Assembly (NCBI GenBank): GCA_022843945.1 | Contig: JALHMR010000013.1 | Coordinates: forward strand, 1-64,000 | From: Rhodospirillaceae bacterium | GTDB taxonomy: Bacteria; Pseudomonadota; Alphaproteobacteria; CACIAM-22H2 | Direction: 5' to 3' | DNA length: 64,000 nt | Shown here: positions 14,602 through 55,756 of the stretch, in pieces | Layout of the letters: every line of letters begins with the position of its first letter | How positions within the stretch are numbered: the stretch's first letter is position 1 | The notes under the pieces: model-generated | The model's input: the letters and a program-made list of their open reading frames with translations, nothing else | Databases searched by the model: none | What the model was told of the DNA's origin: nothing | Translations under genes and position numbers: made by a program

Positions 14602-14745
14602 TTCATCAACGGTATCGAACAAAACTGCTGAGCCAAGAATACTTTCATCCTCGAAGACAACAGCCGGCCCCAGGCTGGTTTTGGCATGGAATACGCGGTA
14701 GCCCGAGCTCAGCAAAAGATCCGCAGCGGTCAACAAGAGTGTCAT
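14308..14745 (-). CDS. Small partner protein of the SIR2 gene, ABC-3C middle-component-like
   Basis: This 145-residue protein starts at the ATG in the TAATG overlap with the SIR2 stop, so it should be translationally coupled. A longer start at 14787 is possible. Features are VVFEDESILGSAVLFDT, DELVEKYAQFEAWFLT, LRAAPVKAWNAYTVLF and NFRGTRKLARFGV. The KAWN.Y.VL plus R.TRKL..FG pattern resembles middle-component proteins of ABC-three-component systems, but that resemblance is from memory and no ABC ATPase gene is present. The C-terminal 20 or so residues are antisense to the truncated HTH-like gene. Its likely role is sensor or regulator of the SIR2 effector. Confidence 0.65.
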   Translation of the reverse strand: MTLLLTAADLLLSSGYRVFHAKTSLGPAVVFEDESILGSAVLFDTVDELVEKYAQFEAWFLTAYANDLRAAPVKAWNAYTVLFASNQASPEQLAQLDAIEQNFRGTRKLARFGVVDKERLVEAIDSRLAPTGMVGDEARRSVLGC

Positions 14746-16070
14746 TACGCCAAGCACTCCACGTAGGCGCTTTCCAACGTCATCCACACACCAGTTTCGC
14801 CGGATCTTATAATAGTGGGCGACGGCGCACCGCGAACCACATTCGGCGCAGCGCCATCGTCAGTGGCGCCAGCGCATATGACTATGTCATACGCTTCAGG
14901 CGGTGGCGGTTCACTTAGGTACTTTGCGCGGACGTAGCTGAGCAGCCCGGCCCCTCTAACCACTCTGATGCGTTTCCCCGCCAACTCATACGCATCCATC
15001 GCTGGCTTAGCGCCCTTTGCTAGTAGCGTCATATGAGCTACCGCCGCTGGAATCATTGCGTCCGATGGCTCTTTAGTCTGCACCGCCTCGTTTCGCATTG
15101 CTCCGCACAAGCTGCGTCGGATTTCATAGAGAGTACGTGTGTCCAATACTCTCGCTGATTCCTCCTGAAAGTTAAATCGTCCCCCACTATAGGCCTCGTA
15201 CTGGGGCTCGGCGCGATCAAAGACGCGCTTTAAAAATCGCCTGCTAAAGGCGCCTCTCAATTCATCTAGTAACCCAGTACCGGTTTCTTGAATGTGCTCA
15301 AACACCACTCCTTGACGATGACTCCAATCCCAGAGCCGAGGTGCTTTTTGTTGAAGAAGATCAGGAGGTGCAGGATCGATAAGAAACACGCGATTCGGGA
15401 CAACAGTTTCGATACAGGCATGCAGGAGGTTCGTCAGATAGGCCCAATCAGACCAAAAGCCGACGAAGAGAATATCCTTGCCTAGCAGCACTCCCTCCAG
15501 CCACTTTTTCGAGCTTTCGAATCTTTCTTTTACGGGCGGCCTGTCTAGTTGAGGCACGCACCAGACCGTGGCGATTGGATCACGCTGAACGCAGCCATGG
15601 ATCTTTAGGTACGGACGATGGGCACGCTCTGTTGCAGCCTCAAACCCGCTTACCGACTGCCAGAAGTCAGCCGCACCGCCGAGATTGTGCGCGGCGGTCT
15701 CGACTAAACAGTCGTAGTTAGTGGTGACACCAAGGGATACAGCGGCACACCATAGAAAGTCAGCAATTGCTTCGTGCCCTAGGTTGAACTCCGTTCTAAA
15801 GACTGCCCAAGGGACATCGTGGGGCAGAAAGATAGATTCAAGCGTATTGTAGCCATCAAAGAGGGTGGTCATACCTTCCAAGTCGTTTTTCACCGACTGA
15901 GGAAGCGACACACCATACTTCTGCCGGTGCCTTTCAAAGCACATTTCCGCTAGCGCGGATGCTAACGGGATTCGACTCGGAGGTGCGACAGAAAGCCCTG
16001 CACCTGAAATGATAGCAAGGCGGCCACTGATCATGGATTCCAGCAGCCGCTCAGCAAGGTCTTCCCGCAT
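14745..16070 (-). CDS. SIR2-domain protein, candidate antiphage NADase
   Basis: The 441-residue protein has an N-terminal SIR2-like Rossmann domain: GAGLS at residues 23-27, TTNYD at 116-120, KIHG at 156-159 and FVGFWSDW near 202-209. The zinc-finger cysteines of protein deacetylases are absent, as in SIR2 effectors of Thoeris- and DSR-type defences that hydrolyse NAD+. The C-terminal half (about 260-441) has no family I recognise; it ends with YDIVICAG... and GVWMTLE segments. The gene has visibly lower GC than its surroundings and a GAGGGGGG ribosome binding site. It overlaps the small downstream partner (TAATG). Abortive-infection NAD depletion is inferred, not shown. Confidence 0.82.
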   Translation of the reverse strand: MREDLAERLLESMISGRLAIISGAGLSVAPPSRIPLASALAEMCFERHRQKYGVSLPQSVKNDLEGMTTLFDGYNTLESIFLPHDVPWAVFRTEFNLGHEAIADFLWCAAVSLGVTTNYDCLVETAAHNLGGAADFWQSVSGFEAATERAHRPYLKIHGCVQRDPIATVWCVPQLDRPPVKERFESSKKWLEGVLLGKDILFVGFWSDWAYLTNLLHACIETVVPNRVFLIDPAPPDLLQQKAPRLWDWSHRQGVVFEHIQETGTGLLDELRGAFSRRFLKRVFDRAEPQYEAYSGGRFNFQEESARVLDTRTLYEIRRSLCGAMRNEAVQTKEPSDAMIPAAVAHMTLLAKGAKPAMDAYELAGKRIRVVRGAGLLSYVRAKYLSEPPPPEAYDIVICAGATDDGAAPNVVRGAPSPTIIRSGETGVWMTLESAYVECLA

Positions 16071-52822: not shown

Positions 52823-53620
52823 TTAATATCCGGGCAGTACCCAGACCTCGGGCCGCCTCCGATTGGGTAGGGTGGCCGCGTTCAAGGTCAGGCTGGGGGC
52901 GGTGTTGCGCTGGATGGTGAAGTCGGCCTCGGTCTGCAGCCGGGCCAGGAAGCGCGAGAGGCGGGCCTCGCTGAAGAAGTGCATGGGGACGACGATCGCC
53001 GGCTTGATCTGCCGGATGACCTCGATCATGTCGAACTGGTCCATCGTGTACATGCCGTCGACCGGGACCAGCAGCACGTCGATCTTGCCCAGCGCCCCCA
53101 GGTGCTGATCGGTCAGCGTGTGGTGCAGGTGGCCGAGATGGGCGATACAGACGCCGGCGCTCTCGAAGACGAAGATCGAGTTGCCGTTGAACCGGGTGCC
53201 GCCGTATTCGCGCACGTTGGTCGGCACGTTGTGGACGCGCAGGTCGTCCTCGACGATCTGGTACTGCGACTCCCCCTCCGACGTCGCCCAGCCGCGTAGC
53301 ACGTGCTTGATCTGCGGCTCCGGAAACTCCGTGAAATGTGTCGAATGCGCGTTGTTCATCGAGACCACGGTCGGAATGAACGGCGGCTTGATGTAGCCGT
53401 TGTAGTCGGTGACCGCCGTGACGCCGCCCGCCGTCTCGATGATGAAGCTCGAATGGCCGATATAGGTGAGCACCACCGTGCCGGGCTGGGCCGCCGCCGG
53501 GCGGAAGCTGGCGAGGGTCGGTCGCAGCGGTCCCTGCGCGACCGGGATGCAGAGGGCGCCTGCGGGTGGCACAATCAACCCTGACAACAGCACCACGAGA
53601 ACGCAAATTTTAGCTCGCAT
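52823..53620 (-). CDS. Exported MBL-fold hydrolase
   Basis: The 265-residue precursor has a signal peptide (MRAKICVLVVLLSGLIVPPAGA). The metallo-beta-lactamase fold is of the UlaG/Rv0906-like type, with VVLTYIGHSSFIIET (first metal-site region), IAHLGHLHHTL (HxGHxHH), LLVPVDGMYTMD and IVVPMHFFSEARL (C-terminal His). Periplasmic location is inferred from the signal. It may act on phosphoester or lactone substrates. It stands alone between galU and the TIR-like gene. Confidence 0.87.
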   Translation of the reverse strand: MRAKICVLVVLLSGLIVPPAGALCIPVAQGPLRPTLASFRPAAAQPGTVVLTYIGHSSFIIETAGGVTAVTDYNGYIKPPFIPTVVSMNNAHSTHFTEFPEPQIKHVLRGWATSEGESQYQIVEDDLRVHNVPTNVREYGGTRFNGNSIFVFESAGVCIAHLGHLHHTLTDQHLGALGKIDVLLVPVDGMYTMDQFDMIEVIRQIKPAIVVPMHFFSEARLSRFLARLQTEADFTIQRNTAPSLTLNAATLPNRRRPEVWVLPGY

Positions 53621-53650
53621 ATCGTCACACTATCAGTGATCTGCAGACGG

Positions 53651-54967
53651 CTAGTTTCCTGCCAGATATTGTTGAATGCTTCCGTCTTCTGCCCGTACCG
53701 TTGCCTTCTCGGGATTCAATTTAGATAACCGGGAAAAGACCTCCCTAACGCGAGGTCCGTTCTCAACCTCACAATACAGCCTAACAAGGCTGTCCAGCAG
53801 TTCCTCGTCCGATCTGTATCGCTCTGTGTCAGCGAGAATGAAAGCAGCATCGATATGTCTAATTGCCTCCTGCCGCTCAGCAGGGTCGCCCGATTTCACC
53901 AGAGTGAACGCAAGGTTAGTATGGTGGGCCGGTCGATTTGGATCAGCACTCACGACCTCACGCGCGATATCTTTTGACTCGTCAAATTTGCGAGCCCCGT
54001 AGAGTAGGCGCGCAAGTTGATTGAGCATAAATGTCTTGTGCTTGAGAGAAATCGAACCCGCTCCAGGAACTTTCTTTCGTAGCGCCTGAAAATAGGCAGA
54101 TAACTTCTCCAGCGCACGTTGTTCCCAATCCTGCTTAAACACTCCCTGCACATAGCTCGATATCACTGCCTCAGCATGTTCTTCTGACCAGCCCTCAATT
54201 CCCGTAAACTCCTTTTCGATTTCCGTAACTGCGATTTTCGAGCCCAACTCCGCCACCTGAGCCAGACCGCTTCTCACATAGGATTCATGAGATGTATGAC
54301 CCACAATGCGTGGGAGGAGCGCCTCGGCAAGCAGAACGTCCCTTTGGGTTAGTGCATAGTTGAACGCTTGAATTGGATCGCCAAGCTTCCTGATCAAGGC
54401 CGCGACGTCCGGGAGATTTGTCACACGTGCCGAAGCGGTCCGTATCGCCGGGCTGACGGTGACATCGTCAATCTTTCGCTCGATTCGTTTTAGAACGTCT
54501 AGAATCGACGCCAAGGATTCACCAGAGCCGCCAGGCTGAAAGCCGTCGGCCATTATCCGTTCAACGATTGAGTGGATGACTTTTACAGTGCTTCGAATCT
54601 CGCGACTGCTTGAGAGATCATAAAAGATGGTTCGGATGGTATTGACGTCAAATGGTAGCTTCTCTCCGTGCCTAGCAAGCATGATATATGGCTTGCCGGT
54701 TTCATGTCGGCGACCGCACTCATACATCACGTTCGGATTGTGATTGGTTAGATCGATAATACAAATATCGGCATTTTGAACTAGTTCGATGATTTCTGCC
54801 GTGATTGATGCAACTGTGTTTAGCTTGTCGGCACGAATTACTTCGAAGCCAAACCTTTCTAGTGATGGCTCTATTACAAGATCAAATAGATCGTCGGCCC
54901 CTTTTCGAATGTCTGAACCCTTCTCGCCGATAGGCGAGATGACAAAGCAGCGCCTCACCGGTTGCAT
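53651..54967 (-). CDS. TIR-like/nucleoside deoxyribosyltransferase-fold protein with helical C-terminal region
   Basis: The 438-residue protein has an N-terminal module (about 1-110) RRCFVISPIGEKGSDIRKGADDLFDLVIEP..., VIRADKLN..., NADICIIDLTNHNPNVMYECGRRHETGKPYIML, a fold related to nucleoside deoxyribosyltransferases and TIR domains, with a conserved Asp/Glu-Cys-Gly-Arg site. The rest is helical, with TPR-like repeats near the end (LNQLARLLYGARKFDESKDIAREVVSADPNRPAHHTNLAFTLVKSGD). GC content is lower than its neighbours, as in the SIR2 island. N-glycoside hydrolase or NAD-related defence activity is inferred from the fold only. Confidence 0.72.
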   Translation of the reverse strand: MQPVRRCFVISPIGEKGSDIRKGADDLFDLVIEPSLERFGFEVIRADKLNTVASITAEIIELVQNADICIIDLTNHNPNVMYECGRRHETGKPYIMLARHGEKLPFDVNTIRTIFYDLSSSREIRSTVKVIHSIVERIMADGFQPGGSGESLASILDVLKRIERKIDDVTVSPAIRTASARVTNLPDVAALIRKLGDPIQAFNYALTQRDVLLAEALLPRIVGHTSHESYVRSGLAQVAELGSKIAVTEIEKEFTGIEGWSEEHAEAVISSYVQGVFKQDWEQRALEKLSAYFQALRKKVPGAGSISLKHKTFMLNQLARLLYGARKFDESKDIAREVVSADPNRPAHHTNLAFTLVKSGDPAERQEAIRHIDAAFILADTERYRSDEELLDSLVRLYCEVENGPRVREVFSRLSKLNPEKATVRAEDGSIQQYLAGN

Positions 54968-55045
54968 TGCTTTGCCCCGTTAACAACTAGCGGTTTAGGC
55001 TATAATTTTTGAGACCTCTCGGCCAGTGCCGACTTCTGAGATATG

Positions 55046-55756
55046 TCAGTTTGATAGCAGGGCGTTTTTGGCTTCGTTTAGCTTTGTCGCAAGATAAGAT
55101 GAGCCGCCCTGGTCGGGGTGCATCTTCTTCATCAGCCGCCTATAGGCGCCGCGCACCTGGTCCTCCGAGGCCCCTGGCTCCAGGCCGAGGACGCGATAGG
55201 CCTCGTCGCGGCTCATGGCGCCCGACGATGCGGCAGCAGGCGGTGCTTCGTGCCCGGCGTCACTCTCGCTGCGCCAAGCCGGTTGCACGCGGTCGAGATA
55301 GGCCTCCAGCAAGGCGGCCGATTCAGGATCCTCGATCCGGGCATCGGCCAGGATGGCCAGCAGATCCGCCGCCGCCAGCTCGCTCAGCCGCCGGCCGCGG
55401 TGGGCGCCCTTGAGGATCACCCCGTCCATGGCGCCAGTGTCGTGGTCGAGCGACATGCGGAACCAGGCGCTCTCGACGTCCGAGGTGTTGCCCGGCTTGG
55501 GGCCGCGGGTGTTGCTCAGGCGCGTCCACAGGCCCTTCCAGCGCACGAAGAGCGGCGCCAGCATGGTGGCAACCATCACCGCGTTGGCCAGCCTCCCGGT
55601 CGCCGTCAGCCATATGGCGACGGCGCCGACGGCGAGGCCCAGCGCCCATTTGATCGCCAGAACGATATGCCCGGGCTTGGCCTGGGCGAACCAGCGCAGC
55701 ACCAGCCAGGTGACCAGCAGGAGCGCCGCGCCGATCAGGAAATTGAACAGGAACAT
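55046..55756 (-). CDS. Membrane-anchored J-domain protein
   Basis: The 236-residue protein has two hydrophobic segments (about 3-22 and 34-50), a middle domain (VESAWFRMSLDHDTGAMDGVILKGAHRGRRLSELAAADLLAIL) and a C-terminal J domain with the HPD motif (RLMKKMHPDQGGSSYLATKLNEAKNALL). J domains stimulate DnaK ATPase, so it recruits DnaK to the membrane. It is the last gene of the SDR-mipZ-VWA operon, 6 bp after the VWA gene. Confidence 0.88.
   Translation of the reverse strand: MFLFNFLIGAALLLVTWLVLRWFAQAKPGHIVLAIKWALGLAVGAVAIWLTATGRLANAVMVATMLAPLFVRWKGLWTRLSNTRGPKPGNTSDVESAWFRMSLDHDTGAMDGVILKGAHRGRRLSELAAADLLAILADARIEDPESAALLEAYLDRVQPAWRSESDAGHEAPPAAASSGAMSRDEAYRVLGLEPGASEDQVRGAYRRLMKKMHPDQGGSSYLATKLNEAKNALLSN

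Follow-up and report, generated by a model that had tools for sequence, protein, structure and literature searches.

What kind of protein is encoded by a low-GC gene lying between a hydrolase gene and a DnaJ gene, and is it, as an earlier sequence-only reading proposed, an acquired defence protein with a TIR-like or deoxyribosyltransferase-like N-terminus and a TPR-like tail? We addressed this question in a 64,000-nucleotide stretch of DNA from a Rhodospirillaceae bacterium (hereafter the window). The gene is complete and encodes 438 residues on the minus strand (53651..54967, read 54967 -> 53651); the limits had been given before and the strand is added here. The two motifs quoted in that reading, CFVISPIG and DICIIDLTNHNPNVMYECGRRHETGKP, both lie in the N-terminal part of the protein. 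The claim of low GC is also borne out. Its overall GC is 0.502, where the two flanking genes have 0.645 and 0.675 and the whole window 0.664; at third positions the gene has 0.513 and its flanks 0.891 and 0.852. Downstream lies a gene for a metallo-beta-lactamase-fold hydrolase (52823..53620, minus; Pfam Lactamase_B_3, E 1.8e-46) and upstream a gene for a DnaJ-domain protein (55046..55756, minus; Pfam DnaJ, E 4.3e-09), all three genes sharing one strand.

The gene was acquired, and as a single gene in this genome: a related genome carries an empty site and the distribution is patchy. In the one same-genus genome compared (G022), the gene is absent and its two neighbours are adjacent, the DnaJ gene being 68% and the hydrolase gene 84% identical to its counterpart in the window. 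The blastn blocks stop at 53564 (L060:4566) and restart at 55068 (L060:4711), leaving ~145 bp where the window has ~1.5 kb. The unmatched stretch, an inserted or replaced block (53565..55067), contains the 438-residue gene together with the initial codons of the hydrolase gene, whose 5' end lies inside it, and the final few codons of the gene for the DnaJ protein. The DnaJ region was compared in ten relatives, and the nine besides G022 are uninformative on the insertion site because they have no hydrolase match in that stretch. No repeats bracketing the insert, no tRNA in the window and no second copy in the genome were found, and in its vicinity sites resembling promoters or terminators are no more frequent than expected by chance. 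Within the family, 1 of 23 genomes has the gene. In a sample of the class, 28 of 385 genomes gave any match; judged by the alignments listed, the match reaches the N-terminal domain in 23 genomes (ours included) and covers the TPR part only in five. In a sample of the phylum, 218 of 398 genomes gave a match, mostly over TPR-only stretches, with two of full length (our genome included) among the matches listed. A general housekeeping enzyme, which the sequence-only reading had named as the finding that would overturn it, does not fit this patchy distribution and the empty site, and was rejected.

The protein was modelled with AlphaFold2 on a 105-row alignment (A3), giving a mean pLDDT of 89.7 and a pTM of 0.64. 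Residues 1-140 (~3-142 in the model; 54548..54967, minus) form a predicted TIR/DRHyd-like alpha/beta catalytic domain, residues 141-186 a linker (54410..54547, minus) and residues 187-438 a TPR-like helical superhelix, the predicted sensor (53654..54409, minus). In the model, the catalytic domain is a three-layer alpha/beta sandwich with the putative catalytic Glu83 at the start of the third helix. Alignment of this domain with VIA-align placed DNPH1 at the top (Z 14.8, 2.2 Å, 125 residues) and MilB second (Z 14.5); the SPARTA TIR-APAZ protein (Z 13.8, 2.4 Å, 124 residues), the SfSTING TIR (Z 13.7, 2.1 Å, 119 residues) and nucleoside 2'-deoxyribosyltransferase (NDT, Z 13.6) align nearly as well. 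A profile built from 55 N-terminal domains also had DNPH1 (Rcl) as its best match (E 1.3e-05). The TDS superfamily is said to have received its founding description in a 2015 paper by Burroughs. From the structural alignments and the DNPH1 profile match, the predicted fold belongs to the TIR-DrHyd-SLOG (TDS) class, as that class is set out in the accessible part of PMC9503650. The comparison of an AlphaFold model to TIR and NDT folds, proposed earlier as a check, therefore bears out the domain assignment, and the repeat array that follows agrees with the TPR-like tail.

No Pfam TIR family matches the 438-residue protein at E ≤ 0.1, although a PADLOC profile labelled 'Effector TIR' (PDLC00733) does match its N-terminus (E 4.4e-12). 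Likewise, none of the 55 N-terminal domains matches a Pfam TIR family at E ≤ 0.001; the deoxyribosyltransferase family Nuc_deoxyrib_tr (PF05014) alone is listed, for six of them. Against the 438-residue protein this family scores 14.0 bits, under its gathering score of 28.8. Foldseek with the model returned no match at E ≤ 0.001. The tail is an antiparallel helix-turn-helix array in the model (residues 188-435) and aligns to TPR chains with VIA-align at Z about 13-14, helical repeats generally scoring high. It lies below the Pfam cut-off, and TPR_2 is matched at E ≤ 0.01 by three of the eight full-length proteins in alignment A2 (best 1.3e-07). Between the two parts, the linker carries a SGESLASxxxxxxRIER helix (residues 147-164; modelled as a helix at 152-169), then a low-confidence segment (169-183).

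The predicted catalytic loop is NPNVMYE (residues 77-83; 54719..54739, minus), and its Glu83 aligns with the Glu of the DNPH1 motif YELG in the profile alignment. Conservation was assessed in 25 rows, our protein and 24 relatives gathered without a motif filter; five loci that tblastn did not re-find (L019, L020, L023, L028 and L031), three TPR-only loci and L026, a chance frame that is the 26th table row and happens to show the P and F of PFD, lie outside this set. E83 is kept in 25/25 rows, N79 in 22/25 and N77 in 21/25, and Y82 is not always kept. A second loop, PFD (residues 105-107; 54647..54655, minus), follows strand 4 and, by its conservation and position, is a candidate for a partner-contributed active-site Asp: F106 is present in 25/25 rows, D107 in 24/25 and P105 in 19/25. 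In the 16 closer rows (A1), which lack nine more distant relatives of the larger set, F8, P34, I55, N77, N79, E83, F106 and D107 are invariant. In A3, the invariance of N77, N79, Y82 and E83 is partly forced by the search pattern; PFD was outside the search patterns, and its P, F and D occur in 105/105 rows.

DNPH1/Rcl and NDT (PF05014) have the fold, the catalytic Glu and the best profile match in common with the 438-residue protein, but the protein lacks the active-site Asp that stands beside the Glu in these enzymes. This Asp (human D80) was located through the D80A and D80N chains 8rpt and 8rps, which have A or N there, and through the Asp in 2khz; in rat DNPH1 we take it to be D69. It aligns with residue 59 of our protein, a column occupied by V, I or L in 105/105 rows of A3 and by I, V or M in 25/25 rows of the unfiltered set. 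The label NDT given by the earlier reading is thus too specific. The SfSTING pocket is described, in the part of PMC9402430 available to us, as F6, S10, R78, N80 and the catalytic E84, completed by D110 from the neighbouring TIR. Its N80-x3-E84 spacing is that of N79-x3-E83, and F8 is a plausible counterpart of F6. At the positions of S10 and R78, judged by spacing, the 438-residue protein has other residues. The PFD loop with D107 may be placed at the DD loop of SfSTING (D110), an equivalence of position only, and a STING-fused relative (L029) has PFY in place of PFD.

Eight relatives align with the protein over its whole length, making a set of nine full-length members. Seven of them (L070-L076) came from a scan of species genomes with an alignment of N-terminal domains and are among the best 80 of 517 confirmed loci. 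Their sources are a Spartobacterium, two Chloroflexi, a planctomycete, Thiodiazotropha, a deltaproteobacterium and an acidobacterium, in other words Verrucomicrobia, Chloroflexi, Planctomycetes, Acidobacteria and proteobacterial MAGs. The eighth is in a genome of the same phylum as ours (G557, locus L246). The 438-residue protein as a lone query against genome and viral contigs gave no confirmed relative, and the alignment queries found them. A 967-residue ORF in L070 was considered as a fusion and rejected; we judged the extra N-terminus to come from the frame being spuriously extended upstream, and used an internal start. Mean pairwise identity among our protein and L070-L076 (n=8) is 0.570 in the N-terminal domain, 0.324 in the linker and 0.234 in the TPR part. 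A conserved enzymatic domain with a diverged tail is as expected of an effector plus a sensor. The linker signature of A2 (8 rows) includes G149, R161, E163 and R164, invariant in 8/8; by eye, the ninth member lacks the RIER motif.

Low GC is a property of the whole set. All nine full-length members have a GC content below that of their flanks, for example 0.502 against 0.676 for our gene and 0.514 against 0.621 for the G557 gene. In the L070-L076 loci this holds for 7/7 family genes versus 6/30 other ORFs of at least 200 residues. For the wider N-domain module, it holds for 78/80 genome clusters versus 118/362 control ORFs and for 50/51 viral clusters versus 44/147, the controls being mechanical picks that include spurious ORFs.

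We scanned 10 flanking ORFs of six of the seven loci (none of L073) and two of L246, and found no recurrent partner gene in these 12 ORFs. At L070 the flanks encode an FHA/response-regulator protein and a metallo-hydrolase from a different Pfam family, at L071 an integrase and an IS110 gene product, at L072 a CoA-binding repressor-like protein, at L074 a GGDEF protein and proteins of the histidine-specific methyltransferase type, at L075 an IS91 gene product and at L076 an RraA-like ORF. Since no partner recurs in the scanned flanks, the full-length protein probably works alone or with host factors. The Thiodiazotropha member is flanked by two copies of a gene of the histidine-specific methyltransferase type, one truncated and one complete (L074:4261-7329), with repeat pieces that are 75% and 88% identical. 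Near the G557 member, a gene at L246:8535-10256 is matched by the PADLOC PD-T4-6 kinase profile, but could equally well encode an ordinary protein kinase domain.

The N-terminal domain also occurs apart from this tail. It has matches in 52 phage records, among them 21 from Streptococcus, 14 from Staphylococcus and 11 from Klebsiella, the Klebsiella matches being weak and partial (35% over residues 52-116). The whole protein is matched in 99 plasmid records, and all 20 of those listed start in the N-terminal domain; the C-terminal 289 residues as a query gave no match at E ≤ 0.1 among either plasmids or phages. The full-length TPR form was found at 0/80 loci in viral contigs (the best 80 of 282 confirmed) and, in a second viral scan, at 0/44 new loci (the best 80 of 238 confirmed), some contigs in both being incomplete. 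The prophage module, represented by phrog_3634 and phrog_10872, has a homologous N-terminal domain (E 1.6e-47 and 3.6e-31). It differs from our protein in its size of 218-391 residues (50 viral clusters listed) and its other surrounding sequence, and in none of 124 viral loci is the tail as long. Every one of the 105 rows of A3 has a match to a PHROG of unknown function, and 103 match PADLOC 'Effector TIR'. In three of four phage records (SM1 gp11, phiARI0923 and phiSa2wa; phiEf11 is the exception), the module is a lone gene antisense to both neighbours. Among 51 viral clusters, 18 are antisense to both neighbours, 19 mixed, 13 on the same strand and one not placed. A general lone-cargo orientation is therefore not supported.

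The module also occurs in defence contexts, in agreement with the defence-linked relatives named in the earlier reading. One such context is a TRAFs-binding tail close to a TIR-annotated gene on an Agrobacterium plasmid (L003). One protein (L016) joins it to a caspase-like domain (PADLOC caspase, E 6.8e-10). Another (L029) joins it to a prok_STING domain (PF20300, over cut-off); its genome, G050, is the sole one of 398 in the phylum sample with PF20300. The STING-fused ORF of G050 also matched our protein directly (BLASTP E 3e-10 in one comparison; hhalign probability 98.1%), and none of the six ORFs scanned around it has a PADLOC match. Bacterial STING also fuses to deoxyribohydrolases, according to the accessible text of PMC10732462, so the STING fusion does not decide between a TIR and a deoxyribohydrolase.

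We regard NAD+ cleavage as the most likely chemistry, with nucleotide hydrolysis as its main rival. Deoxyribohydrolases act on a wider nucleotide spectrum than TIRs, as far as the accessible part of PMC9503650 describes them, and for this reason the substrate may not be NAD+. A one-gene abortive infection protein whose TDS domain hydrolyses (deoxy)nucleotides in the manner of DNPH1 or MilB, and so either exhausts the nucleotide supply of the phage or produces a signal, would fit the lead of DNPH1 in profile and structure and the second place of MilB. We nevertheless consider it unlikely. The Asp that marks DNPH1 is absent from every row of both alignments, and the SPARTA and SfSTING TIRs follow at a distance of ~1 Z and at similar deviations, close to a tie. 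It is scarcely credible that the domain is catalytically dead and serves as a nucleotide-binding regulator or in metabolism: the sub-threshold NDT similarity in Pfam would suit such a protein, but the catalytic Glu is kept in the whole unfiltered set and the distribution is patchy and acquired.

Other readings accept an active enzyme and change its role. That the protein is toxin-like or a conflict factor carried by mobile elements, engaged in plasmid or prophage competition or in stress response and not aimed at phages, is suggested by the plasmid and phage records and by the integrase, IS110 and IS91 genes near two full-length relatives. Defence genes ride mobile elements too, however, and the STING and caspase-like fusions point to immunity, which makes this reading distinctly unlikely. 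The sequence-only reading had counted our gene as a second acquired defence besides a SIR2 gene. The window does contain a SIR2-like gene (14745-16070, minus, 441 residues, in a low-GC stretch of 0.53-0.56), and PADLOC ThsA matches its product (E 2.8e-7). The wider claim is weak: about 37.6 kb separate the two genes, and the proposed survey of the neighbourhood for defence genes gave a PADLOC match in 0/16 distinct ORFs over ~46-62 kb of the window, some of these ORFs probably not being genes. In a split Thoeris system, our protein would be a ThsB-like TIR whose product, an isomer of cyclic ADP-ribose, signals to a separate effector such as the SIR2-like protein. The low GC of both genes in one window and the ThsA match would allow this, but the match covers only the SIR2 part, residues 115-205, no TIR gene was recognised by eye beside the SIR2-like gene among the ORFs read, and no partner recurs in the scanned flanks of the family. 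We consider this arrangement very unlikely.

The explanation towards which we lean is a single-gene, acquired immune receptor in which a TDS effector, likely an NADase, is joined to a TPR sensor and loss of NAD+ aborts infection. In its favour we count the TIR and STING fold matches, Glu83, the missing DNPH1 Asp, the defence fusions and the phage records, together with the identity contrast between N-domain and tail, the empty site, the rarity in the family and the low GC of all nine members. Against it we count the lack of a Pfam TIR match, the first place of DNPH1 in profile and structure, the Foldseek null, the lack of a defence gene among the 16 neighbouring ORFs scanned, the loss of N77 or N79 in some rows, PFY in L029 and the lack of a full-length form among the viral loci compared. 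Effector and sensor in one chain, with the enzyme gated by a variable repeat array, would be the parsimonious arrangement, and the gene probably encodes a one-gene, self-sacrificing defence against phages.

A working mechanism can be proposed, for which we infer the substrate, the oligomerisation, the trigger and the antiphage effect. The N-terminal TDS domain would be an effector that cleaves a glycosidic bond, and the C-terminal TPR superhelix its sensor. The resting protein would be inactive. A phage product might then be bound by the TPR array and the signal passed through the linker helix, bringing the TDS domains together, so that the D107 loop of one would complete its neighbour's active site beside Glu83. 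NAD+, or another nucleotide, would be destroyed and the infection aborted. Self-assembly is proposed here because the TIRs of SfSTING and SPARTA are activated in this way: in the available parts of the two papers, self-assembly of SfSTING TIRs completes the active site (PMC9402430), and the SPARTA NADase is switched on by TIR self-assembly (PMC10474274).

Among the known systems closest to this protein is TIR-STAND-TPR of P4-like satellites, described in the accessible part of Rousset et al. 2022 (PMC9122126) as a single gene in which TPR is proposed as the sensor. Judged by that text, both have one gene, an N-terminal TIR-type effector, C-terminal TPR and a place on mobile DNA, but TIR-STAND-TPR has a central STAND NTPase where our protein has a short linker helix only. 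With this helix instead of the NTPase, a nucleotide-driven switch would be absent. A STAND/Avs-type receptor was accordingly rejected, since no NTPase family matches in Pfam and residues 143-186 consist of a helix and a low-confidence linker. Thoeris and CBASS were rejected as well: no ThsA or CD-NTase is adjacent, the neighbours being the metallo-hydrolase and DnaJ genes. SfSTING, a TIR-STING protein, has the same TDS fold and catalytic Glu, whereas our protein has a TPR tail instead of the STING domain and no Pfam TIR match. SPARTA TIR-APAZ also has the TDS fold in common; our protein is a single gene without Argonaute or APAZ. We found no description of a TDS-TPR architecture without a STAND domain in the open PMC literature, subscription papers being mostly outside this search. 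More tentatively, these proteins may form an undescribed minimal receptor family across phyla, a TDS NADase with a fast-evolving TPR sensor carried as a lone 1.3-kb cargo gene, with no NTPase switch, second messenger or partner and with a killing module in common with prophages. If this is right, it would be about the simplest possible effector-plus-sensor immune protein. TPR recognition alone would then be able to control a TIR-like enzyme, no STAND ATPase being needed, and the module of phrog_3634 and phrog_10872, of unknown function in phages of Streptococcus, Staphylococcus and others, would gain its first functional handle.

The module is found in further arrangements. On an Agrobacterium plasmid (L003), the same N-terminal domain (30% identical) is followed by a long tail annotated as TRAFs-binding, a Pfam family that does not match the 438-residue protein; similar labels occur on Rhizobium plasmids. 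Near this gene (L003:1-5326) lie a TIR-annotated gene (PADLOC TGT) and genes for a DNA lyase and a 7-cyano-7-deazaguanine synthase. In a Nitrosopumilus MAG (L131:2738-4234), the module precedes a stretch that by eye resembles a membrane span, and a further domain. In a Bacteroidetes MAG (L148:3252-5477), two module genes stand in tandem, one with the module near its N-terminus and the other with the module behind ~245 residues. The module also follows ~228-261 residues in L090, L098, L100, L108, L117, L119, L120, L123, L129, L142, L143 and L170.
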